A stretch of 12,413 bases of DNA. Source: an uncultured Planctomycetaceae bacterium. Its GTDB lineage: Bacteria > Planctomycetota > Planctomycetia > Pirellulales > JACPPG01. Positions 1 through 12,325 of this stretch are shown here, one piece after another (the first letter of the stretch is position 1; each line of letters begins with the position of its first letter). The notes under the pieces are model-generated. The model saw only the letters and a program-made list of their open reading frames with translations. It was not told the DNA's origin and ran no database searches. The translations under genes and the position numbers were made by a program. The stretch lies in contig CAMFLN010000022.1 in assembly GCA_945957305.1 (NCBI GenBank), positions 1 to 12,413 on the forward strand. Reading direction: 5' to 3'.

Positions 1-300
1 TTCTTCGGCTGCGGCACGCTGTTGGTCCTGGCGCTTGTCGTACTGGCGCATTTTCCAAAAAGTCCGTTGCGGGCTGCGCTCGTGCAAATCTGCGGCTGGG
101 CCACGGCGCTTCTGTGCGGGGCCTGGATTGCCTCGCCTGCCGATCCAATTCCCGATGTTTTCTTCCCGGTTGGATTCATCGACGACGTTTTGGCCGTGAT
201 CGTCGGGTTCAAAGCAGCCAAGGCGGCCTGGAAGGCCGGTAAGGAAAAGGCCGCCTTCCAGGAGGAAGAGGCGGCCGCGGCGGGGCGGCGGGCGGCATGA
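1..300 (+). CDS. YkvA/DUF1232-type small membrane protein, 5' end cut off
   Basis: The reading frame is open from the first base of the window and stops at 298-300, so this is the C-terminal part (99 codons) of a gene that begins upstream. A TTG at 22 could serve as a start, but the hydrophobic reading continues before it, so truncation by the window edge is more likely. The visible part has hydrophobic stretches (LLVLALVVLAHF, then ALVQICGWATALLCGAWI). These are followed by SPADPIPDVFFPVGFIDDV, which matches the SPxDxIPDxxPxxGxxDD signature of the YkvA/DUF1232 family. A charged Ala/Glu/Lys-rich tail ends the protein. The biochemical role of the family is not established. The gene is 55 nt upstream of the ParB-like gene on the same strand, so it may be the preceding member of the same operon. 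Confidence 0.75.
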   Translation, partial: FFGCGTLLVLALVVLAHFPKSPLRAALVQICGWATALLCGAWIASPADPIPDVFFPVGFIDDVLAVIVGFKAAKAAWKAGKEKAAFQEEEAAAAGRRAA

Positions 301-309
301 GGCCGCCCG
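289..309 (+). terminator. GC-rich hairpin over the stop codon of the DUF1232 gene
   Basis: CGGGCGGC (289-296) and GCCGCCCG (302-309) form a perfect 8-bp stem with the 5-nt loop ATGAG, which contains the stop codon. The only T-rich stretch (TTTTA) begins about 11 nt after the stem, so this is not a standard Rho-independent terminator. It could attenuate transcription or stabilise the mRNA before the ParB-like gene. It may also be a chance result of the very GC-rich gene end. Confidence 0.3.
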
Positions 310-355
310 TGCGCCCGTCGTTTTAATACCCGCGATTTCTTAGGAAGGAGTTCTC

Positions 356-1210
356 ATGTCCCACGAAGCGATTCGATACGTGCCACTCGACCAAATCGAT
401 TGCGAACTGCAAATCCGCACCAGTTTCGCCGAACAGCCTTTGATCGGCCTGGCGCGCAGTATCCAGGAAATTGGCCTGCAACAGCCACTCCGCGTGCGTG
501 CCGCCGGCGAGCGTTTTGTCGTGGTTGACGGTGAGCGCCGACTACGAGCGGCGCGGCTCGCGAAGCTCGCGGAAGTGCCGGTCATTGTTGAAGAAAAACC
601 TCTTTGCGCCGGCGAAATTCTGCAACGCCAGCTGATCGCCAATCTGCAGCGTGCGGGTCACACGCCGGTGGAGCGGGCGCAAGCTATCAAGCGGCTCCTG
701 GACGAGACGGGCTGGGCCGCCGTGGAAGCCGCCGGCAAATGCGGCATCTCCAGTGCCACCGTGACGCGGTCCTTAGCGATCCTGGAACTCCCCCAGCCGA
801 TCCAAGCGCGGATTAATGCCGGCGAAGTCCCGGAAAGTGCCGGCTATTTGCTCAAGCAGGTGGCCGATCCTCACAAGCGCGCGGAACTCGTTTCGCAGAT
901 GGCAGCAGGCCAGCTCTCGCGCGATGCGCTGGCCAGTGAAGTCAAAACCGATCGTCCACGCAAATCCCGCAAGTCTACCCCGAGCGTGAATCGCGCCACG
1001 GCGCTCGTGGCCGGCGGTGATTCGGTGACTGTGGTCGGGACCGCCCTGACGCTCGATCGCATGGTCGACGCTTTGTCGTCAGTGCTGGCCAGGATTCGCA
1101 AGTTGCGCTCGCGCGGCGTGGCCGATGTGGCGATGGCCTGCCGCTTGTTGCGTGAAGAGGCCCAGGCCGAGATGAAGGCTGCCCCGGCAGTTGCCCAGGA
1201 GGTGTCGTGA
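356..1210 (+). CDS. ParB/Spo0J-like DNA-binding protein
   Basis: A 284-aa protein with a strong ribosome binding site (GGAAGGAG, 5 nt before the ATG). The order of motifs is that of ParB-like proteins. An N-terminal ParB/sulfiredoxin-type fold carries the box GERRLRAAR at residues 59-67. The NLQRAGHTPVE box lies at about 96-106, in the place of the usual ENLQR motif. A helix-turn-helix follows at about 118-133 (KCGISSATVTRSLAIL). A basic linker (PRKSRKS) near 200 leads to a C-terminal helical part. Known family roles are CTP-dependent centromere binding in partitioning and, on mobile elements, transcriptional control or DNA processing. No ParA partner is in the window, so a partition function is unproven. 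It overlaps the coupling-protein gene in a TGATG arrangement, which suggests a role linked to DNA transfer or maintenance of the island. Confidence 0.85.
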   Translation: MSHEAIRYVPLDQIDCELQIRTSFAEQPLIGLARSIQEIGLQQPLRVRAAGERFVVVDGERRLRAARLAKLAEVPVIVEEKPLCAGEILQRQLIANLQRAGHTPVERAQAIKRLLDETGWAAVEAAGKCGISSATVTRSLAILELPQPIQARINAGEVPESAGYLLKQVADPHKRAELVSQMAAGQLSRDALASEVKTDRPRKSRKSTPSVNRATALVAGGDSVTVVGTALTLDRMVDALSSVLARIRKLRSRGVADVAMACRLLREEAQAEMKAAPAVAQEVS

Positions 1211-2706
1211 TGGACGAAAACCAGATCATGGCTGCCTGCCTGGCAGCTTGCGGACTGTTGTGGGTCGTCGGCCGCCGCCGGCAGCCGCGTAAAGGGAACC
1301 TTGACGCCCCGTTGTTTCGTTGGACCAAAAAGGATCCCTTTACGGTTCGCGATCTGATCAATGGCGGAGTGTGCATCGTGGGACGCGTCGGATCGGGGAA
1401 GACGAGTTCGTCTGGTCGCATTGTGGCGCAATCAATTGTGAATTATCGCAATTCGGGTGGGCTGATCTGCGCCGCCAAACCTGGCGAGGACGTGGCCCTG
1501 TGGCGAAAAATCTTCGCGCAAGCCGGCCGCAGCAAGGATCTATTAATATTCGAACCTGATGGCAAGCTGCGGTTCAACTTCCTGGCCGAGGCGCTGCGCC
1601 ACGGCGGACACACCCGCGAGATCACGAAGTGCATCACCACGATCGGCGAGACGCTGCGGTCAAGCGACCATCGTCGCGGCGAGAACGCCGATTTCTGGGA
1701 GCGTGAACAAGAGCGGATGATCTACAACGCCGTGGGGCCGGTGAAGCTGGCCACCGGTGCCGTCAACGCTCCTGATTTGCAGGAGTTCATCGTCACGGCC
1801 GCCGAGAACCCGGCGCAATTGAGCGAGCCGGCCTGGAAGAGCAAGTTTCACTGCCAGTGCATGGAAGCGGCCTGCCACGCGCGCAAGTCGAAGTTCGACG
1901 CGCATGATTATCAGCTCGCCAGCGACTACTGGTTCGCGGAAGTCCCCGCGATGTCCGATCGTACGAGGTCGTCAATCACGACGGGCGTGCTGGGCATCCT
2001 GCACACTTTCAATACGGGGCTGGTGCGGGAGTTGGTATCAACAACCACGAACGTCAGTCCCGACGACCTGCTGCGGCGCAAGTGGATCTTGGTGAATATG
2101 CCGCCGGCGGCCTACGGCGACATGGGCAGTTTTGTGAATGCCGGCTGGAAGTACCTGACGCAAAAGGCGATTCTCCGCCGCCACGCCAGACCAAAAGATC
2201 CGATCCATGTGATCTGGTGCGACGAAGCGGCGCAGTTCACCAATAGCCATGACCAGTATTTCGTCTCGCAGTGCCGGTCGCACCTAGGGTGCCTGGTCTA
2301 TCTCTGTCAATCGCTGCACAGCTTCCACGCGGCCTTGGGGGGAGGCGAAGGCCGCCATCAGGCCCAGGCGCTGTTGGCGAATTTTGGACATCGCATTTTT
2401 CACGCCCTCGGTGACATGGAAACCGCGATGTGGGCCAGTGGCTTGGTCGGGCAGCGTCTGGAGACGCTCATCGGCGGCTCGATGCAGCCGACCACCGACA
2501 TCTGGGACGAAATCATGAGCTATGGCCACTTCACCTCCACATTCAACACGCAATACCAACCCATCCTGCAAACCAACGAATTCATGAACGGCTTGCGGAC
2601 CGGCGGCCGCAAGGCGGGCTACGTCTGTGACGGCATCGTGGTGCGCTCGGGCGAGAGATTTTCCAACGGCGAGAACTGGTTACGAATGGCCTTCAGTCAA
2701 AGGTGA
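1210..2706 (+). CDS. VirD4/TraG-type coupling ATPase (type IV coupling protein-like)
   Basis: A 498-aa protein. The ATG at 1210 overlaps the ParB-like stop (TGATG) and has AGGAGG 7 nt upstream, which favours it over the in-frame GTG at 1207. A single N-terminal membrane segment lies at about residues 6-20. Walker A is GRVGSGKTS at 58-66 (Lys64). The segments KPGED and FEPDGKLRFNF recall the nucleotide-domain motifs of VirD4/TrwB proteins. Walker B is HVIWCDE at 333-339, followed by the TraM-recognition-like region with CLVYLCQSLHSF. Family members are inner-membrane hexameric ATPases that bring relaxase-DNA or protein substrates to a type IV secretion channel. The protein is shorter than many VirD4 proteins (usually 550-650 aa). 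No relaxase or VirB4 gene is seen nearby, so the transfer apparatus would lie outside the window or be absent. Confidence 0.85.
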   Translation: MDENQIMAACLAACGLLWVVGRRRQPRKGNLDAPLFRWTKKDPFTVRDLINGGVCIVGRVGSGKTSSSGRIVAQSIVNYRNSGGLICAAKPGEDVALWRKIFAQAGRSKDLLIFEPDGKLRFNFLAEALRHGGHTREITKCITTIGETLRSSDHRRGENADFWEREQERMIYNAVGPVKLATGAVNAPDLQEFIVTAAENPAQLSEPAWKSKFHCQCMEAACHARKSKFDAHDYQLASDYWFAEVPAMSDRTRSSITTGVLGILHTFNTGLVRELVSTTTNVSPDDLLRRKWILVNMPPAAYGDMGSFVNAGWKYLTQKAILRRHARPKDPIHVIWCDEAAQFTNSHDQYFVSQCRSHLGCLVYLCQSLHSFHAALGGGEGRHQAQALLANFGHRIFHALGDMETAMWASGLVGQRLETLIGGSMQPTTDIWDEIMSYGHFTSTFNTQYQPILQTNEFMNGLRTGGRKAGYVCDGIVVRSGERFSNGENWLRMAFSQR

Positions 2707-4108: not shown

Positions 4109-4377
4109 TGTCCAACCGGCAAGCGCCTTCTGACAGGATTGAACGCAGCGATTCGCTTGCTGCGAGCGACCTTCCGGTCGATTCCGCGCTACCCGCCTGG
4201 ATTACGCCCGAGCTGATCGAGGACACGATCCGCGTCTGGCAACCCTACTACGCGACCGCTCTTACCCCGCAAGACGCCATCACCATCGTCCGGGATTTGG
4301 GTCGGCTGCTGGACGTGTTGTGCCGGAATGAGACGTCCAAGTCGCAGCGTAAGCATGCTGACGGAGCTAACGGGTGA
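4108..4377 (+). CDS. Small soluble protein of unknown function, last gene of the first operon
   Basis: An 89-aa protein starting in a TGATG overlap with the zinc-ribbon gene. The central part (ALPAWITPELIEDTIRVWQP, then YYATALTPQDAITIVRDLGR) reads like a compact conserved helical domain. It is followed by LLDVL and a basic tail. From memory, proteins with this ITPELIxxTIxVWQPYY pattern occur in planctomycete islands just ahead of recombinase genes; this cannot be checked here. Function is unknown. The stop codon TGA overlaps a GTG that opens a ten-codon reading frame, which may be the remnant of a further coupled gene. Confidence 0.7.
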   Translation: MSNRQAPSDRIERSDSLAASDLPVDSALPAWITPELIEDTIRVWQPYYATALTPQDAITIVRDLGRLLDVLCRNETSKSQRKHADGANG

Positions 4378-4406
4378 GCCAATTTGTACACGCCGCGTAC
4401 AGTTGA
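4374..4406 (+). pseudogene. Ten-codon coupled ORF, possible 5' stub of a lost gene
   Basis: A GTG at 4374 overlaps the preceding stop (GTGA), as the other genes of this operon do, but the frame encodes only VSQFVHAAYS before a TGA at 4404-4406. Serine recombinases often begin with a few residues followed by a strand such as AxYxRVS, which the stub would fit. It could therefore be the start of a recombinase gene interrupted when the downstream cargo entered. Ten codons are too few to be sure, and it may simply be a chance reading. Confidence 0.2.
4385..4401. promoter_or_regulatory. 17-bp inverted repeat, possible operator
   Basis: TGTAC and GTACA flank a 7-nt GC-rich spacer. The repeat lies about 50 nt upstream of the promoter-like elements of the precursor gene, so a regulator could bind there. 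No second copy was seen next to the other genes, which weakens the case. Confidence 0.2.
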
Positions 4407-4428
4407 TGCACCCTGCGAATATTGATGA

Positions 4429-4452
4429 GATGCTCATAGCATCGGCTTTTTT
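4429..4452 (+). terminator. Terminator-like hairpin closing the ParB/coupling-protein operon
   Basis: GATGC and GCATC form a 5-bp stem around the loop TCATA. The stem is followed by GGC and six T residues, 52 nt after the last stop of the first operon. The stem is short and only moderately GC-rich, so termination may be partial. Its position, directly before the promoter-like pair of the peptide cassette, supports a transcription boundary here. Confidence 0.45.
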
Positions 4453-4453
4453 C

Positions 4454-4482
4454 TTGAAGCGGCCAGTTTCACTCGGTAGACT
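4454..4482 (+). promoter_or_regulatory. Sigma-70-like promoter of the peptide cassette
   Basis: TTGAAG (4454-4459) and TAGACT (4477-4482) are separated by exactly 17 nt. Each matches the consensus at four of six positions. Transcription would begin near 4489, leaving a leader of about 40 nt before the precursor ATG. The elements lie just after the terminator-like hairpin. The match is modest, and planctomycete promoters are poorly defined. Confidence 0.4.
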
Positions 4483-4527
4483 GCCTCCACCCGTTTCCCT
4501 ACCTTTTTTCACTGTCTGAGGTGCGCA

Positions 4528-4749
4528 ATGGCAAAGAAAAAGGCCGCGAAGAAAAAGGCGACTCGTGGTGGAAGGCTACAGCTCATCGTATCGGATGAGA
4601 AGAAACCAAAGATTACGGTCGCGGCGGGCGAGAAACTAGAAGTTGTTGCGGTGTCACTTATCGACCCGGGGCGCAAACCAGCGCGCGCGACCGCAGCGCG
4701 CTTGTGCGGAGGCACGAGTACTTGCTTGGCCCTTGTTGATGTCTCCTAA
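4528..4749 (+). CDS. Candidate RiPP precursor peptide with a two-Cys core
   Basis: A 73-aa peptide with GAGG 6 nt before its ATG. It starts with a Lys-rich segment (MAKKKAAKKKATRGG). A beta-prone middle part follows (LQLIVSDEKKPKITVAAGEK). It ends in RATAARLCGGTSTCLALVDV plus a last Ser, with Cys60 and Cys66 as its only cysteines. The short length, charged leader-like part, Gly/Ser/Thr/Cys-rich C-terminus and the radical SAM/SPASM gene 35 nt downstream are the usual pattern of a precursor whose C-terminal core is modified. Cys60 and Cys66 are candidate thioether donors as in sactipeptides or ranthipeptides; this is inference. No double-Gly cleavage site is obvious other than GG at 14-15 and 61-62, and no protease or transporter gene is adjacent. 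Alternatively it could be a small basic DNA-binding protein, as KKAAKKKA is also seen in histone H1-like tails, but the hydrophobic C-terminus argues against that. Confidence 0.65.
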   Translation: MAKKKAAKKKATRGGRLQLIVSDEKKPKITVAAGEKLEVVAVSLIDPGRKPARATAARLCGGTSTCLALVDVS

Positions 4750-4756
4750 TGCCATG

Positions 4757-4775
4757 ACGGCCGATCGCTGGCCGT
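4757..4775 (+). promoter_or_regulatory. Intercistronic hairpin between precursor and radical SAM genes
   Basis: ACGGCC and GGCCGT form a perfect 6-bp stem with a 7-nt loop (GATCGCT). The hairpin starts 8 nt after the precursor stop and ends 9 nt before the enzyme start. There is no T-run, so it is not a standard terminator. In operons with a highly expressed peptide and a low-abundance enzyme, such hairpins often protect the upstream mRNA or reduce downstream expression. It occupies the place where the ribosome binding site of the downstream gene would be expected. Confidence 0.45.
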
Positions 4776-4784
4776 TAGTCACCG

Positions 4785-6209
4785 ATGCTGACGCCATCGC
4801 GCTACAACTTTGCTGTGCAGGATGACGATCGCGTACTCCTGTATTGCGCACGAACGGGCGCTGTGCTTTCGCTGGAAGGCAGCGATCGAGTCGTGCTGGC
4901 GGAGATGCTTTGTACCTATCGCCGCCCTTTCGTGTCTGACAATCTAGCGTCGGATATGTGTGCGGAGCTGGTTCGCGGTGGGTTTCTCGTGGAGGGGGAT
5001 TTCGACGAGCTCGGCGAGGTGCGACGACAATACTGGCTTGCGCGAGAAGAATCGCCAATCGTGTTGACGATTACCACGACCATGGATTGTAATCTGGCCT
5101 GCTACTATTGCTACGAGACACGAACCGCCGATCGCCTGGAAGAATCGGATTTGCCGAGTTTGGTCGCCTACGTTCAGGGCCTCATAGCCCGCAAGGCTCC
5201 GCCAACATTGCATGTTGACTGGTATGGAGGAGAACCGCTGCTGAACGTCGCGTTTTTGGAAGCGGCTTCTTACGCACTTCAAGCCACGTGCGCGGAAAGG
5301 GGCGTTGTTTATCACGCATCGATCATAACAAATGGCACCCGTTGGCCAGGCAACGCTGCATTGTTCGTCGAGAGGCACCGCATTCGCCAAGTGCAAGTGT
5401 CATTCGATGGATTAAAACAAAACCACGATCTTCGGCGTAGGTATCGTTCCAACGATGGCGAGGGCTCTTCGTTCGACGAAGCAGTTGGGCTCGTTGATGG
5501 GCTGGTGGGTGTCGTACGAGTGGATTTGCGTTTTAACATCGATCGGAAGAACGCCTGCGATATTGTCCCGTTTTTGCAGTTTGCGGAAACGAGAGGTTGG
5601 TTCCGGAGCGACCCACCGGTGACGATCCAACCAGCTCGGCTAGCGTCATATTCTGCTCGTTCACAGTTTATGCGCAACTGGGAGCTGTCCGTCGAGGAAT
5701 ATGACACCTGTCGCGCCGTGGTCCGCGGGTACGTCGGCAAGCGGGTGGCGGTAGAGGAATCCGAGTCTCCGGATGGCTTTCCTTGGCCGAGAAGTTCTGT
5801 GTGTGCAGCCCTGAATCCGTCGTCGACTGTTATAGGAGCCGACGGTTACGCGTACCGTTGCGGTCTTCAAGTCGGAGAACAGAATCGGCGCATGGAACGG
5901 ATCTGCGCTGGTCGCAGCAACGGGAACTTGAATTCGCTGCCAATCGTCGATTTGGCAAACCCTATCGGAGACGATCGCGAGTTTTGGAGGGACTTCGACC
6001 CAACCGTTCAACCAAACTGCTCGCGTTGTTCTTTCCTGCCGATCTGTTGGGGTGGCTGTCCCAAGAAACATCTCGAAAAGGACGCCCACGCGCTCGCGGA
6101 GCAAGGCGCCTACTGGCGACATAATCTTGCTCGATTGATTCTTGCTGGCGTAGGCCGGGATCCCTCTAGATCGGTTGCGTATTCAGAAAAAGAGCAATTC
6201 AGGGATTGA
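4785..6209 (+). CDS. Radical SAM/SPASM peptide-modifying enzyme
   Basis: A 474-aa enzyme. The start at ATG 4785 is fixed by an in-frame stop at 4776-4778. Residues 1-90 (SRYNFAV, then LLYCARTGAVLSLEG and a later LVRGGFLVEGDF) look like a PqqD/RRE-type peptide-recognition region; this is a pattern judgement. The radical SAM core has CNLACYYC (Cys102, Cys106, Cys109; CX3CX2C), which binds the SAM-cleaving 4Fe-4S cluster, and GGEP at 148-151. The C-terminal SPASM part has Cys340, Cys359 and the cluster CSRCSFLPICWGGC (Cys412, 415, 421, 425), which would hold auxiliary Fe-S clusters. Known relatives are sulfatase maturases and enzymes making thioether or C-C crosslinks in RiPPs. The 73-aa peptide upstream is the likely substrate and no sulfatase is adjacent. 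No clear Shine-Dalgarno precedes the start, which fits coupling to, or lower expression than, the precursor. Confidence 0.88.
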   Translation: MLTPSRYNFAVQDDDRVLLYCARTGAVLSLEGSDRVVLAEMLCTYRRPFVSDNLASDMCAELVRGGFLVEGDFDELGEVRRQYWLAREESPIVLTITTTMDCNLACYYCYETRTADRLEESDLPSLVAYVQGLIARKAPPTLHVDWYGGEPLLNVAFLEAASYALQATCAERGVVYHASIITNGTRWPGNAALFVERHRIRQVQVSFDGLKQNHDLRRRYRSNDGEGSSFDEAVGLVDGLVGVVRVDLRFNIDRKNACDIVPFLQFAETRGWFRSDPPVTIQPARLASYSARSQFMRNWELSVEEYDTCRAVVRGYVGKRVAVEESESPDGFPWPRSSVCAALNPSSTVIGADGYAYRCGLQVGEQNRRMERICAGRSNGNLNSLPIVDLANPIGDDREFWRDFDPTVQPNCSRCSFLPICWGGCPKKHLEKDAHALAEQGAYWRHNLARLILAGVGRDPSRSVAYSEKEQFRD

Positions 6210-6215
6210 ACAGCT

Positions 6216-6395
6216 ATGGGGGTGCAGAGGGATAATTCAGCAGACTGCATCCGCGCCAGCATATGCGGTTCGATTGCGGCTGCGAGACGACCGATGGCAC
6301 CCAAAACTGGTTTAATACTTTGGGCGTCCACTGCCATGGGTGACGATGCCCAGCTTGCGCTAACGCACAAACTGAGCCGTCAGCCCGCAATTTAG
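6216..6395 (+). CDS. Doubtful 59-aa ORF directly after the radical SAM gene
   Basis: This ORF starts 6 nt after the enzyme's stop, in the same reading frame, and ends before the terminator-like hairpin, so it would be the third gene of the cassette. The peptide begins MGVQRDNSADCIRASICGS and contains two Cys (11 and 17). AGGG lies 11 nt before the ATG, farther than usual. Codon composition is not convincing and no domain is recognised. It could be a second small peptide, a degraded 3' extension of the enzyme gene (only one stop codon separates them), or chance. Confidence 0.25.
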   Translation: MGVQRDNSADCIRASICGSIAAARRPMAPKTGLILWASTAMGDDAQLALTHKLSRQPAI

Positions 6396-6422
6396 GCGAT
6401 ACGACTCGATTGTTATTAAAGG

Positions 6423-6471
6423 ACGCCGTGACAATACCCAGACGATCGTCGGTTGGGTCGGCGTTCTTTTT
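6423..6471 (+). terminator. T-tailed hairpin ending the peptide cassette
   Basis: ACGCCG (6423-6428) pairs with CGGCGT (6459-6464), CCCA (6437-6440) pairs with TGGG (6454-6457), and the apex is the palindrome GACGATCGTC (6441-6450). The run TCTTTTT follows immediately. The outer stem plus T-tract has the form of a Rho-independent terminator, with an asymmetric internal loop on the 5' side. It lies 213 nt after the radical SAM stop and would separate the cassette from the helix-turn-helix/GAF unit. Confidence 0.55.
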
Positions 6472-6484
6472 CGGAGGTGCGGCC

Positions 6485-6736
6485 ATGATTCATGGCGTGG
6501 GACGGCTGTTCCTCCTGTTCAGGCCAAGGAAGGTGGAGTTAGGCCAGACAGACAGCAATTTGGAGATCGAGCGTTCGTGGGAGCCACCCAATTCGAGATT
6601 AGAGTTGGCCTGTTACCGTGGCGCATTGACACCCGTGCGGTTCGCGTGCCAGCGGCATGCTCGCAACATCCTTGCAGACAGGCACTTACGGCGCATTGGC
6701 CGGTGGCTGGCGGTTCAGCTCCCAGGAGGCGCATAA
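6485..6736 (+). CDS. Doubtful 83-aa ORF with a good ribosome binding site
   Basis: GGAGG (6473-6477) stands 7 nt before the ATG at 6485, an ideal arrangement, and begins just after the T-tailed hairpin. The protein starts MIHGVGRLFLLFRPRK and ends in an Arg-rich stretch (HLRRIGRWLAVQLPGG). No domain is recognised, and the Arg/Cys-rich composition is typical of both genuine small basic proteins and chance ORFs in GC-rich DNA. It may be a real small gene or a remnant. Confidence 0.3.
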   Translation: MIHGVGRLFLLFRPRKVELGQTDSNLEIERSWEPPNSRLELACYRGALTPVRFACQRHARNILADRHLRRIGRWLAVQLPGGA

Positions 6737-6823
6737 TCGGCAACTTCGACCCGCTAGACTTACCACTCATGGATGTAATTGCCGGCATGAACGGACTCGG
6801 CCACGCAAGGACGGGAGGGTTGT

Positions 6824-7543
6824 ATGGCCGGAGTGCATCGTTACGACCGCGCCGACGGCGATGAAGAACATGAGGAATGGTGTCAAGTTCGTGACGGCTT
6901 AATGGAAGCGCTGAAGTCCAAGGGCTTCACATTCCATGAGTTCTCCCAGGCAGTTCATCGCGCCGTGCTGGCGGCAAGCGATGGCTGGCGAAGCGACTTC
7001 GCTCATCGTGGCTTTGTGGAGTTTATTCAAGATGAGCGGAACAAAACGCTGAAGCGTGTCGACCCAGCAACGGACAGCGGAGAGTTTCGTGAATTCCGCG
7101 ATGGCCTGACGCTGCAAGAGCTAGCGAGCATTTGCGGCTGCAATCAAGGAACTCTGTCCAATTTGATAAATTCGCAAACGCAATGGCCTATTGCTCGCTA
7201 CGAGCAGATCATGACATTTTTGGACGGCGAAACGTCCCTGCTGCACCCTAAGCGCGATGATGCGGATTTAAACCGCACAATCCTGCTCGCTGCCGTCAAC
7301 TCGATTCGTACCGAGTGGCTGCATAAGCGTTCTCTGTTGCCTGGGTACGAGGAAGAATGCTTTTCTGAACCGATTGATCCGGTCCAGTTTGAAGCCTTTT
7401 TGGCCAGCCAAAGTTCCGCGTCGAACGTCCGGGACCATCAGCTCACGCCCCGCTCGTTATTTGCACCATTGCTCTTGGCGTGCTTCGTTTTGGACGGATC
7501 AGTCGACGGCCCACTTACCGGAGACCCACCATTTTTAAGGTAG
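6824..7543 (+). CDS. Helix-turn-helix (XRE/Cro-like) protein
   Basis: A 239-aa protein with GGGAGGG a few nt before its ATG. Residues about 94-133 contain a helix-turn-helix: LTLQELASICGCNQGTLSNL, then INSQTQWPIARYEQIMTFL. This fits the Cro/C1-type pattern of a helix, turn, recognition helix and following helices. The N-terminal 90 residues are acidic and helical, and the C-terminal 100 residues are unassigned. The family normally binds operator DNA as a dimer. The gene is 6 nt upstream of the triple-GAF gene, so the two are probably cotranscribed and could act together as regulator and sensor. The DNA target is not evident; the inverted repeat at 4385-4401 is one possible candidate. The long flanking regions are unusual for a simple XRE repressor, so another role, such as an adaptor in a signalling or defence module, remains possible. 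Confidence 0.65.
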   Translation: MAGVHRYDRADGDEEHEEWCQVRDGLMEALKSKGFTFHEFSQAVHRAVLAASDGWRSDFAHRGFVEFIQDERNKTLKRVDPATDSGEFREFRDGLTLQELASICGCNQGTLSNLINSQTQWPIARYEQIMTFLDGETSLLHPKRDDADLNRTILLAAVNSIRTEWLHKRSLLPGYEEECFSEPIDPVQFEAFLASQSSASNVRDHQLTPRSLFAPLLLACFVLDGSVDGPLTGDPPFLR

Positions 7544-7549
7544 CCAAAT

Positions 7550-9457
7550 ATGTCGAACTCCATGGACCAGTTAAAGGTACCACCTGTCATCCTGGTCGAG
7601 AATCAGGGTACGGAGTCGGAATTGAAGCTGGTTAGCGTAATCGAAAGTCATCGCAAACGGTGCCATCGTGACGGCCTTTCAGCATCCTCGCTCATTGCAA
7701 GGTCCCTAGCGAAGCGAGGCCTACTCGGACCTCCTCGACAAGTCACCGTTGACAATCGCCTCGAGGACGCACCACCCCAGCGCGAACTTCGTGTCCATGT
7801 GACGCATGGATCGACGGAGTCGTCGATCGTCGACGCGGTCACGGCGCTACGCCGGTCTGTCAAGCGCCATTTTATGTGCGAAACACGGCGCCGGCTTTTT
7901 GACTTGGTGGGCTCATTGGCTGAGCGCCTGCGTGCAACATCTTCGTATCTGTTTGCAGCACGTTCTAATGGCCGGCTCGATTCGGTGATTACAAGAGGAG
8001 TACGAACCGATCGCGGCGGCACAGAGATTCACCTCAGTGGATGGGACAACGGCATCGTCCCGCATGTCGCACGAACGCGGCAAGTATATTGCGTGGGCAA
8101 TGTTACCGATTGCTCGTTTTACCGGCCGACGGTCCGTTCCACACGTTCTGAAGTGGCCGTTCCCATTCTTGATCCGGGAAAAACGTCGCGATTCTTGGGC
8201 GTGTTGAATCTCGAATCAGACCATCCTAACAAGTTTGCGGCAGATAGCCTATCGGCCATCAGTGCGGACATTAACAACATCGCCTTACATTTGAAGTGCT
8301 TGCTCAGGATGGACGAGGACAACGCCTGGGCTTGGCCTTGGAATCCCAAAATTGGTCGGTCGTGGACGCTGAGGAACAGTTTGGCCCGTATCTGCACCCG
8401 AATTGCCGAAACGGTGTCAAAAGATCATTGCGCGAGCTGCACGATTTGGGATGTGGATTGGCGCGCATCTCGATTGTTTGTGGAAGCGACGCATGGCTAT
8501 GACTACGAGTTTATCGCTGCCAAGACGCTGGCTTTGAATTCGTTTACGGGTGACGCGGCCAAGCTAGGTCCCGAGCAAGTCTTGATGGACGATCCGATGG
8601 CGCGGCCGAACTTTCTTGAAAAACAGCGTGCTCGCGATTTCGGTCTCCAGCAAGTGTCGTCGGTGCCCTTATTCGGGATCACGTCACTGACGCCTTCCGC
8701 CGTTGACCTGCAAGCGACGGGTACGCTCAATGTCTACGCGTTTCGTGAATCGCGGGCAACGCGTTTGCCAAGACCAGAAGAGTTGGTGCAACTCGCGCGG
8801 TTCCTTGGTGGGACGCGCGCTGAGTTTGAAGCATTTCGCAAGGACCTTGCCTTAGGACGGTTGCACGGAAAGCTCGCCCATTGTGACGACGCCGGACGAT
8901 TTGACGCTGTTCGAGACGTGCTGTGCGAGGTGCTCGACGCGGACAGCTGTACCGTATTTGTCTGTCCTCCCGACGGAGACGAGATTATCTACGTGTCAAC
9001 AACGGGGCTGGTTCCGGAAACTGCAGTGTTGCGAAACCAGTTGGACATCCAAAGAATTGGGAATTTTGAGTCGGTGATGTTACGGCGTTCCGATCAAACG
9101 GGTTTGGTCCCATACCTTGCGAGACACGTCGGCTGCGTGCTTAGGCTTTATGATCTCGCAAATCGAAAGGATCGAGATTCTCCTGCCGATCTACCGAGTG
9201 TCGACCGACGGTTCGTCGACTCGATTGCTCGGAACGACGAGCATTGCCGCTTTATGGGAATATCGGTGGGATTAGAGGGTGTCGCAACGGGAGTCATACG
9301 CGTCCTTAGATCGGCATCCAATCCACCGTTTTCGCGAGGGGATGAGGAATTACTAGTACTCTTGGCTCGATCGATTGAAAGCCTGTTTCAAGAGGCAGCT
9401 GGGAGCGGCATCGACGCTGAGGTGCCGGCCGTTGTAAAGCTGGAAGCAGTCCAATGA
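7550..9457 (+). CDS. Multi-GAF-domain sensor-like protein without a visible output domain
   Basis: A 635-aa protein starting 6 nt after the helix-turn-helix gene (ATG 7550; an ATG at 7562 is an alternative). The first 100 residues are unassigned and basic. Three GAF-like units follow. The first is at about 112-250, with EVAVPILDPG and FLGVLNLESDHPNKF, the standard late strands of a GAF fold. The second is at about 275-420 (SCTIWDVDW and later TGTLNVYAF). The third is at about 440-617 (SCTVFVCPPDGDEIIYVSTT and later VATGVIRVLRS). GAF domains bind small ligands such as cyclic nucleotides, haem or bilins, or mediate dimerisation. No histidine kinase, GGDEF, PDE, HTH or other effector part is visible at either end, so output must come through a partner, most simply the helix-turn-helix protein encoded just upstream. 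No membrane segment is present, so the protein is predicted to be cytoplasmic. Confidence 0.75.
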   Translation: MSNSMDQLKVPPVILVENQGTESELKLVSVIESHRKRCHRDGLSASSLIARSLAKRGLLGPPRQVTVDNRLEDAPPQRELRVHVTHGSTESSIVDAVTALRRSVKRHFMCETRRRLFDLVGSLAERLRATSSYLFAARSNGRLDSVITRGVRTDRGGTEIHLSGWDNGIVPHVARTRQVYCVGNVTDCSFYRPTVRSTRSEVAVPILDPGKTSRFLGVLNLESDHPNKFAADSLSAISADINNIALHLKCLLRMDEDNAWAWPWNPKIGRSWTLRNSLARICTRIAETVSKDHCASCTIWDVDWRASRLFVEATHGYDYEFIAAKTLALNSFTGDAAKLGPEQVLMDDPMARPNFLEKQRARDFGLQQVSSVPLFGITSLTPSAVDLQATGTLNVYAFRESRATRLPRPEELVQLARFLGGTRAEFEAFRKDLALGRLHGKLAHCDDAGRFDAVRDVLCEVLDADSCTVFVCPPDGDEIIYVSTTGLVPETAVLRNQLDIQRIGNFESVMLRRSDQTGLVPYLARHVGCVLRLYDLANRKDRDSPADLPSVDRRFVDSIARNDEHCRFMGISVGLEGVATGVIRVLRSASNPPFSRGDEELLVLLARSIESLFQEAAGSGIDAEVPAVVKLEAVQ

Positions 9458-9460
9458 GCA

Positions 9461-9481
9461 GAGCGCGTGGGTTGCGCGCTC
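9461..9481. terminator. GC-rich hairpin between convergent genes
   Basis: GAGCGCG and CGCGCTC form a perfect 7-bp stem with a 7-nt loop, 3 nt after the GAF gene stop and touching the stop codon of the minus-strand gene. A clear T-run is missing on both sides, so it may act as a weak bidirectional terminator or as an mRNA 3'-end stabiliser. Confidence 0.4.
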
Positions 9482-10085
9482 AAGACTTTCCCTTGTTACC
9501 CTCATTAAAGTCCTGATCGCCGGGAGTGATCCGCAATATCCAGGGCTCGGCCGACGCGGCAGTTTCATGCTTCGGTCTTGAACACTCTTGGACGATCTCC
9601 CTATAGACCGTGGTCATACGGCGTACGAGCCCCACAGCGTCCTTGGTGGCCTGAATCCGTGCGACGACGGGATCGCGATGCGGCTCGTCATCCTGCGCGG
9701 TCGTAGATCGCTGTTTCAGACGCACGTCTAGCTCGTTGTCTAGGCGATCGAGTTCTTCGCCCAGCGCTTCGACTGTCAGACGACGAGCGATCCATTTTTT
9801 CACCAGCTCGTCGAGGCGTCTACTCCAGTTGTTCGAGTCGCGTCGTGCTACGGCCGCGAACAACGGCAAGAGGACCTGGACCGTGCTTGCCGGATTGGAA
9901 TCAAACGGCGAATAACCCGTCTTGTCCGGGACTACCAAAGCACGCAACAGGGCCACGGCATTCAACGGCCGTGGGCTGTCGGGAGGGAAACCCTGCAGCA
10001 GGTGGGTATTGCGGGAGAGCTTCAATAGCTCATCTAGATTTGGCAACTCGTCCGTCATCCCCTTTGGAAATGCCACATCAGACAT
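9480..10085 (-). CDS. Helical cytoplasmic protein of unknown function
   Basis: A 201-aa protein on the minus strand, convergent with the GAF gene. No long believable frame opposes it, and its composition is normal for a protein. The middle and C-terminal parts look helical, with a likely coiled coil at about 103-124 (TVEALGEELDRLDNELDVRL). No signal peptide, membrane segment or enzyme motif is visible and I do not recognise the family. A second Met at residue 10 (after FPKG) is an alternative start; no strong ribosome binding site precedes either. Its opposite orientation shows it is an independent unit, possibly island cargo or a resident gene. Confidence 0.6.
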   Translation of the reverse strand: MSDVAFPKGMTDELPNLDELLKLSRNTHLLQGFPPDSPRPLNAVALLRALVVPDKTGYSPFDSNPASTVQVLLPLFAAVARRDSNNWSRRLDELVKKWIARRLTVEALGEELDRLDNELDVRLKQRSTTAQDDEPHRDPVVARIQATKDAVGLVRRMTTVYREIVQECSRPKHETAASAEPWILRITPGDQDFNEGNKGKS

Positions 10086-10787: not shown

Positions 10788-12269
10788 ATGAAACAGTACG
10801 TCGCGCTCGCACGGGTCAGCAGTCGAGAACAAGAACGGGAAGGATTCTCGCTCGCTGTTCAACAGGATGCGCTCAATCGCTTCGCCGAGCGCGCGGGTGG
10901 TCAGATCGTGCGCCTCTTTTCTGTTGCGGAGACGGCCAGCAAACAGGCCGAGCGGAAGACATTCCGCGAATTGCTCGCGTACGCGAAGAAGCATGCCCGG
11001 CGACTCGATGGGCTGTTGTTCTACAAGGTTGATCGCGCGGCGCGAAATCTCTTTGATTTCGTGGAGCTTGAACGATTGGAGGTCGAGTATGGTGTGCCGT
11101 TCATTTCGGTTTCTCAGCCGACCGACAACAATCCGGCCGGCCGGATGATGCGCCGCACGCTGGCTTCGATGGCTGCCTTCTACACTGACCAGCAGTCGGT
11201 CGATGTCCGCGAAGGTCAGGAGCGTCGCGTTAAGGAAGGCTGGTTCGTTGGTAAGGCTCCCTACGGCTATCGCAACGTCCGCAAGGATGGCCGCGGATTG
11301 GTGGAAGTTGATCCCGAGACCGCCGACAACGTGCGACGAATGTTTCACTTGTTCGCCTACGAGCCGCTGACGCTCGACGCCTTGGTCGAGCGATTGCATG
11401 CGGAAGGACGAAGGTTCCGGGCAGCCATGCCGAAATTCCCGCGCAGCTCGATCCACAACATGCTCTTGGATCGAGCCTACATCGGCGAGATCGAATTCCG
11501 CGGCCAGTGGTATCCCGGCAAGCACGAGCCACTCGTCGATCGGGCGACCTGGAACCGCGTGCAGGTGCTACTCGGCGGTAAGACCTATAAGGCCCATCAG
11601 CTCACCTACGCCGGAGCCATTATGCGCTGTAGCCACTGCGGCAACCTGGTCACCGGCGAACAGGTTCTCAAGAAGCAGACGGGCAAAGCTTACGTCTATT
11701 ACCGCTGCACCATGTACAACAAAGGAGACCATCCGCGCACGCGCGTCACGGAAGGACAACTTGACGCGCAGGTACTGGCGCTGTTTCGCACGATTAAGCA
11801 GCCTGAGGACGTGCGAGATTGGTTTGCTCTCACGTTGCGGGAGTGGTCCAAGCACGAACGCGGCGAGTCGATTGCGCGCGCCGACCAGCTTCAGCGCGAG
11901 TTGACGCAATTGCGGCTGCAAGAGGATCGGCTGCTAAATCTGCGGCTGCTGGATGAGATCAACGGCGATACCTTCGCCCGAAAGGCGACCGAGTTACGTG
12001 ATCGTATCGCCGAAGTAACGATCAGAGTCGAAGCCGCCGACCGTGATCGGGGCGAACAGGCCGATTTGGCGAGTCGCGTTTTTGAACTCTCGCAAGCCCT
12101 GGAGCAGAAGTGGCTTACGGCTGATTTCTCGGAAAAGCGGCAGATCCTTGATATTGTCTTTTTGAACTTGCGGCTCGACGGCGTAAGTCTCAGCTATGAA
12201 ATGAGAAAGCCCTTCGACGTTCTCGCCAAAGGGCTTTCTGTCCCGTCAAATCGGGGCGACAGGATTTGA
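10788..12269 (+). CDS. Large serine recombinase (resolvase/invertase superfamily)
   Basis: A 493-aa enzyme with an AGAGG-type ribosome binding site before the ATG. The N-terminal catalytic domain (about 1-150) begins MKQYVALARVSS, with Ser11 as the predicted nucleophile. It contains KVDRAAR at 80-86, with the DRxxR residues of the active site. A recombinase domain follows at about 165-275. A zinc-ribbon-like region comes next (CSHC at 281-284, Cys307, and probably His315 instead of a fourth Cys). A coiled-coil segment lies at about 359-440, then a conserved-looking end (RKPFDVLAKGL). The length and domain order are complete, so it should be active. Such enzymes join DNA through a 5'-phosphoserine link and mediate integration or excision of islands and phages. 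The stop codon lies inside the convergent tRNA-Pro gene, so the tRNA 3' end is the probable attachment site. It reads well as a planctomycete-type member from memory. Confidence 0.93.
   Translation: MKQYVALARVSSREQEREGFSLAVQQDALNRFAERAGGQIVRLFSVAETASKQAERKTFRELLAYAKKHARRLDGLLFYKVDRAARNLFDFVELERLEVEYGVPFISVSQPTDNNPAGRMMRRTLASMAAFYTDQQSVDVREGQERRVKEGWFVGKAPYGYRNVRKDGRGLVEVDPETADNVRRMFHLFAYEPLTLDALVERLHAEGRRFRAAMPKFPRSSIHNMLLDRAYIGEIEFRGQWYPGKHEPLVDRATWNRVQVLLGGKTYKAHQLTYAGAIMRCSHCGNLVTGEQVLKKQTGKAYVYYRCTMYNKGDHPRTRVTEGQLDAQVLALFRTIKQPEDVRDWFALTLREWSKHERGESIARADQLQRELTQLRLQEDRLLNLRLLDEINGDTFARKATELRDRIAEVTIRVEAADRDRGEQADLASRVFELSQALEQKWLTADFSEKRQILDIVFLNLRLDGVSLSYEMRKPFDVLAKGLSVPSNRGDRI
12204..12239 (-). 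terminator. Hairpin downstream of tRNA-Pro, inside the recombinase gene
   Basis: AGAAAGCCCTT (12204-12214) and AAGGGCTTTCT (12229-12239) form a perfect 11-bp stem with a 14-nt loop. On the minus strand it begins 11 nt after the tRNA 3' end, and its second arm leads into the T-rich CTTTCTCATTTCAT, the layout of a tRNA terminator. At the same time the plus strand of this hairpin encodes KPFDVLAKGLS of the recombinase C-terminus. Confidence 0.5.
12251..12269. other. Candidate attachment-site core at the tRNA-Pro 3' end
   Basis: These 19 nt belong both to the 3' part of the tRNA gene (acceptor arm and part of the T arm) and to the last codons and stop of the recombinase. Islands that integrate at tRNA genes usually use the 3' end and restore it, which fits the intact tRNA. 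No second copy is visible in the window, and a serine recombinase would need only a very short identical core, so the exact crossover point cannot be placed. Confidence 0.35.
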
Positions 12270-12325
12270 ACCTGCGACCTCTTGACCCCCAGTCAAGCGC
12301 GCTAGCCAGGCTGCGCCACGCCCCG
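12251..12325 (-). tRNA. tRNA-Pro (anticodon GGG)
   Basis: A 75-nt cloverleaf read on the minus strand. Acceptor arms CGGGGCG and CGCCCCG pair fully, with discriminator A at 12251. The D arm has GCGC/GCGC. The anticodon stem CTTGA/TCAAG carries the loop CTGGGGG, giving anticodon GGG for proline CCC (and CCU) codons. The T arm GCAGG/CCTGT has loop TTCAAAT. No variable-arm insertion is present and the CCA end is not encoded. Its 3' end overlaps the last 19 nt of the convergent recombinase gene. All stems are intact, so the tRNA should still function. Confidence 0.97.

Follow-up and report, generated by a model that had tools for sequence, protein, structure and literature searches.

We found a two-gene cassette for a probably modified peptide in a contig of an uncultured Planctomycetaceae bacterium (CAMFLN010000022.1; 12,413 nucleotides, hereafter the window, i.e., the whole stretch of DNA analyzed). 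The first gene encodes a 73-residue peptide with two cysteines in its C-terminal part, and the second encodes a radical S-adenosylmethionine (SAM)/SPASM enzyme of 474 residues. The same genes lie side by side in related loci, the end of the peptide is conserved, peptide and enzyme co-occur, and defense genes are found near several of the relatives. Together with the predicted fold of the enzyme, these observations suggest, with fair probability, an unnamed two-gene family of ribosomally synthesized and post-translationally modified peptides (RiPPs), whose fixed crosslinked product, most likely a cysteine thioether, would act inside the cell in conflict or defense functions of genomic islands. 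Judged by its genes, the pair belongs to the already known radical SAM kind of RiPP, and the precursor/maturase family itself has no name in the models searched.

Searches with the window proteins gave 94 peptides (E value of 0.1 or better) and 575 enzymes, the window's own included in each case. These matches and the open reading frames (ORFs) bear out an earlier sequence-only reading of the window, which had placed a 73-residue peptide gene 35 nucleotides (4750-4784) before the enzyme gene. The peptide ends in CGGTSTCLALVDVS, and its conserved core is AARLCGGTSTCLALVDVS. Among the 94 peptides, P27, A57, R58, L59, C60, T65, C66, and A68 are invariant, and in 85 the two cysteines enclose the loop GGTST. 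The mean pairwise identity is 93% over residues 56-70, 44% over residues 19-55, and 18% over residues 2-18; for the 120 aligned enzymes it is 57%. The peptides of the family have about 55-90 residues, with the leader consensus LIVSDE..P.V.LKPGMKLEVV.V; one of the peptide alignments used 46 of the 94 peptides. A constant product part combined with a drifting leader is unusual for RiPPs and, as far as the alignment tells, the opposite of what a diversifying natural product would show. The sequence-only reading had placed Cys60 and Cys66 in the core presumed to be modified and had proposed a homolog search with an alignment of the C termini, in which conserved cysteines and a variable leader would count as support; the 94 matches agree on both cysteines, on the variable leader (44% against 93% for the core), and on co-occurrence with the enzyme. 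Its remark that the precursor was not recognized as a named class also holds, as the peptide matched no NCBIfam, Pfam, or PHROGs model.

The peptide gene lies directly 5' of the enzyme gene in all eight loci read, namely the window, Mesorhizobium prunaredense (L024), Sinorhizobium (L025), two Bradyrhizobium plasmids (L026 and L027), Rubripirellula (L040), and two further Mesorhizobium loci (L043 and L044). L024 and L025 look like one context, as do L026 and L027, so that the loci other than the window represent about five independent contexts. In 72,556 plasmids, independent searches with the enzyme (at least 46% identity) and with the peptide gave the same eight records, all of them Bradyrhizobium plasmids of 0.86-0.98 Mb. 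A peptide profile matched 2 of 396 genomes of the window's order, and the enzyme gene adjoined in both. When the 94 peptides were compared with the 120 listed enzymes (of 575), 12 of the peptides were on a contig of exactly the same size as that of a listed enzyme, compared with a mean of 0.71 and a maximum of 6 in 100 shifted controls. The precursor/maturase pair proposed earlier is thus found in 8/8 loci and 8/8 plasmid records, and a peptide without its enzyme, which would have spoken against the pair, was seen neither in the two matching genomes nor in the eight plasmid records. In the plasmid of Bradyrhizobium sp. 62B (L027), the enzyme gene (12001-13387) is split over two frames, and the peptides of L026 and L027 have the same sequence.

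The enzyme scored above the cut-offs of the Pfam Radical_SAM model (PF04055, 40.6 bits; cut-off 29.5) and of the NCBIfam SPASM domain model (TIGR04085, 35.3 bits; cut-off 27). The CX3CX2C motif and the SPASM cysteines noticed in the sequence-only reading are confirmed; each of these cysteines is present in 120/120 aligned relatives (the listed part of the 575 matches; one further alignment used 24 of them). The final cysteine of what we take to be the seven-cysteine SPASM pattern is absent. The N terminus is predicted to form strands within residues 2-30, followed by helices at residues 35-42, 56-64, and 75-89, an arrangement compatible with a RiPP recognition element (RRE). Among the structures ranked by Foldseek, the predicted fold is nearest to the thioether synthase CteB; the alignment with CteB, a comparison of the whole enzyme rather than of the RRE-like domain alone, begins at residue 5. 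The scores of the enzyme were far below every NCBIfam maturase cut-off shown.

From these features, the following pathway may be proposed. The ribosome would make a peptide of about 55-90 residues, the leader of which would dock on the RRE-like N-terminal domain of the enzyme. The cluster held by the CX3CX2C motif would cleave SAM and bring about hydrogen abstraction in the near-invariant core, and through this radical modification the two cysteines would most likely yield one or two thioethers. One candidate link would join Cys66 to Asp71, the acidic residue five positions further along, a CX4[DE] pair resembling the substrates of PapB, which forms Cys-Asp or Cys-Glu links and accepts 0-6 intervening residues (PMC9413430). 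The other would join Cys60 to Thr65, a five-residue spacing once reported in vitro for the Cys32-Thr37 link of CteA (PMC8326336). Proteases near some relatives, none of them constant, may release the modified tail. Because the product is fixed rather than diversified and no exporter was recognized, we think that it acts inside the cell and would serve conflict or defense functions carried by the islands, either as a signal or as an effector. The proposal makes a sharp prediction: a single fixed loop is crosslinked, and the links to suspect first are Cys66-Asp71 and Cys60-Thr65.

The core occurs in more than one form. Starting from the Bradyrhizobium copy, we found a second type in 46 proteins, with [AS]RLCG[YLF]G and a CX6C loop; a third type comprises two Mesorhizobium peptides, also with CX6C loops, that end in LCGYSSTYCVAVVEAK and LCGYDATYCVALIEQS and adjoin enzymes with 43% and 41% identity to the window enzyme. 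The loops are mostly GGTST (CX5C) in the first type, mostly G[YLF]G[TS]N. (CX6C) in the second, and GY[SD][SA]TY (CX6C) in the third. Both cysteines and an alanine two residues past the second cysteine are present in 94/94 peptides of the first type, 46/46 of the second, and 5/5 locus peptides. An acidic residue five places past the second cysteine is present in 80/94, 46/46, and 5/5, respectively. Thr65, five places past Cys60, occurs in every first-type peptide (94/94) and in the two third-type peptides from Mesorhizobium. Different cores were under-sampled, because the peptide search gathers proteins sharing 5-residue words, as the two further types show.

Several relatives have CBASS, SIR2-HerA, AbiEii, Septu, or caspase genes or an Avs2 fragment at a distance of up to about 10 kb. 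In the Bradyrhizobium locus L026, AbiEii is immediately upstream and SIR2-HerA about 5 kb upstream, and a CBASS cyclase, E1-E2, and phospholipase follow about 6-10 kb downstream. The Mesorhizobium locus L043 has PtuA and PtuB (Septu) immediately upstream and a caspase and an LmuA-like metallo-beta-lactamase downstream. A caspase gene lies upstream in L044, which also contains HipA and a PLD protein that matches DrmC weakly; two large genes on its far side look NACHT- and CHAT-like by eye, gave no Pfam or PADLOC match, and are not claimed here. M. prunaredense has a DUF900 hydrolase and TPR-CHAT upstream, a PDZ-S41 peptidase on the 3' side, and a RES-domain gene further on, and the CHAT- and S41-like frames of Sinorhizobium resemble these by eye. 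In Rubripirellula, PDC-S39 stands beside an Avs2-like frame and is followed by an M48 peptidase of borderline score (20.4 bits; cut-off 20.3). With PADLOC at 1e-5, 13 of 26 neighbors outside the window matched (L040, 2/4; L024, 0/3; L043, 4/6; L044, 1/4; L026, 6/9), compared with 0/10 control genes, which were chosen by position as the first two or three ORFs of four stretches from four of the same genomes (10 of 38 ORFs). No constant partner gene was seen across the loci read, and neither an exporter nor an immunity gene was recognized among the window proteins scanned or the neighbors scanned in the other loci. The statement of the sequence-only reading that no protease is nearby holds for the window but not for some relatives, in which CHAT, S41, caspase, or M48-like genes stand near the pair in differing arrangements.

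Two of these loci contain further features. The Avs2-like frame of Rubripirellula (90-2381, minus strand, 763 residues) aligns with the best Avs2 profile (734 bits) over the first half of that profile only. In L026, three genes (13385-16580, minus strand) are convergent with the cassette, the first overlapping the 3' end of the enzyme gene by 26 nucleotides; none of the three had a Pfam match, and two of them had no PADLOC or PHROG match either.

A number of points weigh against the proposed crosslinked product and its role. Neither candidate acceptor residue is universal in the family: 14 of the 94 first-type peptides have no acid at position 71, among them that of Rubripirellula (Arg), and Asn replaces Thr65 in 45 of the 46 second-type peptides. 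The requirement for shared 5-residue words favors like cores and inflates the conservation of the core, and the fold prediction of the peptide is poor (predicted local distance difference test, 69; predicted template modeling score, 0.30). PADLOC matched 0/3 neighbors in the window, where no known defense gene was recognized, and, as given above, 0/3 in L024; islands gather unrelated cargo. The loci are few, and the scanned neighbors were picked after being seen. Since they were so chosen and some of the matches are weak (caspase, 27 bits; DrmC, 42 bits), the defense association is a lead, not a statistic. Should the defense neighborhood be functionally meaningful, peptide chemistry by radical SAM enzymes would become linked to bacterial immunity. 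In a more specific and rather doubtful form of this idea, the pair would be a minimal or modular immune RiPP, in which a near-invariant cysteine loop of at least three types, made in the cell and crosslinked by radical chemistry, serves as a signal or ligand by which conflict effectors such as caspase, CHAT, Avs-like proteins, or other island systems are armed or restrained.

The pair is rare and patchy, and the family, with its 575 matches, is spread widely but thinly, as one would expect for cargo that moves horizontally. At an E value of 1e-60, the enzyme was found in 1/392 Planctomycetota genomes, 1/249 genomes of the order and 1/398 of the phylum of Mesorhizobium, and 1/297 genomes of the Sinorhizobium family, the query genome being the sole match each time, and in 3/146 genomes of the genus Mesorhizobium, query included; these samples overlap. 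At a loose threshold, 21/97 genomes, the own one included, had some radical SAM match, and we took the others to be different enzymes because the best reached 1.3e-12 over about 140 residues. More distant plasmid maturases (H9, H10, H14, and H15; 24-30% identity) have other precursors or none visible; the limit of the family thus appears to fall somewhere in the range of about 30-41% identity. An origin as a phage gene was rejected: five IMG/VR scans gave no close relative, and the 32 phage records matching the enzyme were all below 60% identity (five shown at 22-33%). One IMG/VR contig (L033, 7714-9078) has a distant relative of 30% identity in two frames, and no peptide with this core is among the listed ORFs of at least 40 residues around it.

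Other explanations were weighed against the same data. The core is nearly identical between Planctomycetota and Alphaproteobacteria, and most products of arms races are unlike a core kept nearly constant across phyla. This makes it improbable that the cassette encodes a secreted or released peptide antibiotic, a sactipeptide- or ranthipeptide-like bacteriocin merely riding on islands; the lack of a recognized exporter or immunity gene among the proteins scanned points the same way, whereas the RiPP architecture, the mobile location, and the RiPP clusters reported near defense genes (PMC12715929) would all suit such a peptide. The fixed core and the fold nearest to CteB would suit a small functional protein, with a redox or metal site or cofactor-like, in which the cysteine loop undergoes maturation for general metabolism, comparable to QHNDH maturation or to SCIFF, the peptides of which are spread so widely among Clostridia that an antimicrobial role has been argued against (PMC8326336). 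A metabolic part of this kind would be hard to reconcile with the distribution (apart from the query genomes, 0/391 Planctomycetota, 0/248, 0/397, 0/296, and 2/145 in one genus) and with the absence of a constant partner gene in the loci read, and we regard it as rather unlikely.

The enzyme might also carry out other chemistry on the same region, such as formylglycine formation from Cys or Ser, epimerization, cyclopropyl formation, or another oxidation. We consider this possible, if doubtful: the two invariant cysteines point to cysteine chemistry, the missing last cysteine of the presumed SPASM pattern contrasts with the auxiliary clusters of anSME and SuiB, described as fully ligated (PMC8326336), and the score with the anaerobic sulfatase maturase model (TIGR03942) was 74.3 bits against a cut-off of 349.45. 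An enzyme grouping with sulfatase maturases beside a sulfatase gene had been named in advance as evidence against the pair; this low score, and the finding of no sulfatase among the six other window proteins scanned, led us to reject that assignment. The reading of the peptide as a chance ORF next to an ordinary sulfatase maturase found no support and is practically refuted by the 93 other peptide matches, the adjacency in 8/8 loci, and the same score.

Features of the window are collected in Table 1. The window is an entire contig, ending where the contig ends, of an assembly that is 78% complete. From the ParB, TraG/TraD-like, and serine recombinase genes and the tRNA-Pro, we take the contig for part of an integrative island, which agrees with the mobile-island location claimed earlier. 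The recombinase frame terminates within the 3' end of the tRNA-Pro (overlap, 12251-12269), a likely island boundary. The left end of the island was not located, since the tRNA-Pro end gave no matching left repeat; in the incomplete assembly it matched just two other places, each inside a whole tRNA-Pro gene. The cassette is flanked by terminator-like sites, as noted previously; seven such sites were found in 4340-6900 on both strands, against 2.8 expected from shuffles. The promoter described before the peptide gene was not found in a scan limited to sigma-70-type sites, which gave a single site, at 6207 (1.0 expected). Downstream are genes for a helix-turn-helix (HTH)-like protein (6824-7543, plus strand, 239 residues; weak matches below cut-off) and, 6 nucleotides later, a protein with two GAF domains (7550-9457, plus strand, 635 residues). 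This gene pair, perhaps of island regulators, was not seen next to the cassette in the relatives read. An ORF at 9480-10085 (minus strand, 201 residues) had only Pfam matches below cut-off.

Table 1. Coordinates of the features in the window, with strand and basis of assignment
Feature	Position	Strand	Basis
ParB gene	356-1210		profile match
TraG/TraD-like gene	1207-2706		profile match
Terminator-like hairpin, would stop upstream transcription	4429-4443	+	consensus scan only
Precursor peptide gene (73 residues)	4528-4749	+	ORF; 94 database matches including itself
Codons of conserved C-terminal core (residues 56-73)	4693-4746	+	alignment of 94 peptides
Cys60 codon	4705-4707	+	within the core
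Cys66 codon	4723-4725	+	within the core
Asp71 codon	4738-4740	+	within the core
Radical SAM/SPASM peptide maturase gene (474 residues)	4785-6209	+	profiles, database matches, predicted fold
Predicted RRE-like N-terminal domain (residues 1-90)	4785-5054	+	predicted secondary structure; start of CteB alignment
CX3CX2C radical SAM cluster motif (residues 102-109; C102, C106, C109)	5088-5111	+	each Cys in 120/120 aligned relatives
SPASM cysteines (C340, C359, C412, C415, C421, C425)	5802-6059	+	each in 120/120 aligned; TIGR04085, 35.3 bits
Terminator-like hairpin 3' of the cassette	6447-6463	+	consensus scan only
Serine recombinase gene	10788-12269		profile match
tRNA-Pro	12251-12325	-	

No model of NCBIfam, Pfam, PHROGs, or PADLOC (the last applied to the enzyme only) names the pair, and CGGTSTC, RLCGGTS, GGTSTCLA, and LCGGTSTCLAL were absent from the open-access papers searched. 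The nearest models, matching nearly the whole enzyme, were TIGR04463 (161.1 bits; cut-off 525) and FlmE/OhkG (NF052473, 142 bits; cut-off 500); no paper on FlmE or OhkG with radical SAM was found in the open-access literature search. A Methylomagnum enzyme of TIGR04463 adjoins a gene annotated as a Cys-every-fifth peptide. The pVip (prokaryotic viperin) profile shares the radical SAM domain and matched with 36 bits, for which PADLOC gives no cut-off, over residues 97-217 only; it has 257 residues compared with 474, and the window enzyme has a SPASM domain in addition and is paired with a peptide gene. CteB/CteA (SCIFF, TIGR03974) differs in that the SCIFF maturase model gave 38.6 bits against a cut-off of 425, CteA has six cysteines in 45 residues whereas the window peptide has two in a C-terminal loop, and SCIFF is spread among Clostridia whereas the present family is patchy in other phyla. 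PapB/PapA (freyrasin, a ranthipeptide) is alike in its SPASM enzyme, which joins Cys to Asp or Glu, residues that stand as Cys-X4-Asp/Glu in the present core (80/94 and 46/46). The PapB model (NF047865) gave 81.6 bits against a cut-off of 340, the repeated CX3D of PapA is absent from the window peptide, which has CX4D, and 14/94 peptides of the family have no acid there.

Radical SAM-dependent peptides have been observed near phage defense systems, as cited in PMC12715929. The closest published idea concerns the peptide-processing modules that Kaur et al. (2020, PMC7159879) describe for NTP-dependent conflict systems. In these modules the C-terminal peptide, the better conserved part, is regarded as a toxin or signal, and the FxSxx type has a radical SAM/SPASM enzyme; for that type, the link to immunity is itself a prediction from gene neighborhoods. 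The window peptide differs from the modules described there in having no FxSxx, RxD, or four-acid motif, and no F at all, and no vWA or MoxR protein and no constant metallopeptidase were seen among the proteins scanned. The likeness lies in the variable precursor, the more conserved C-terminal peptide, the radical SAM/SPASM enzyme, and the conflict setting.

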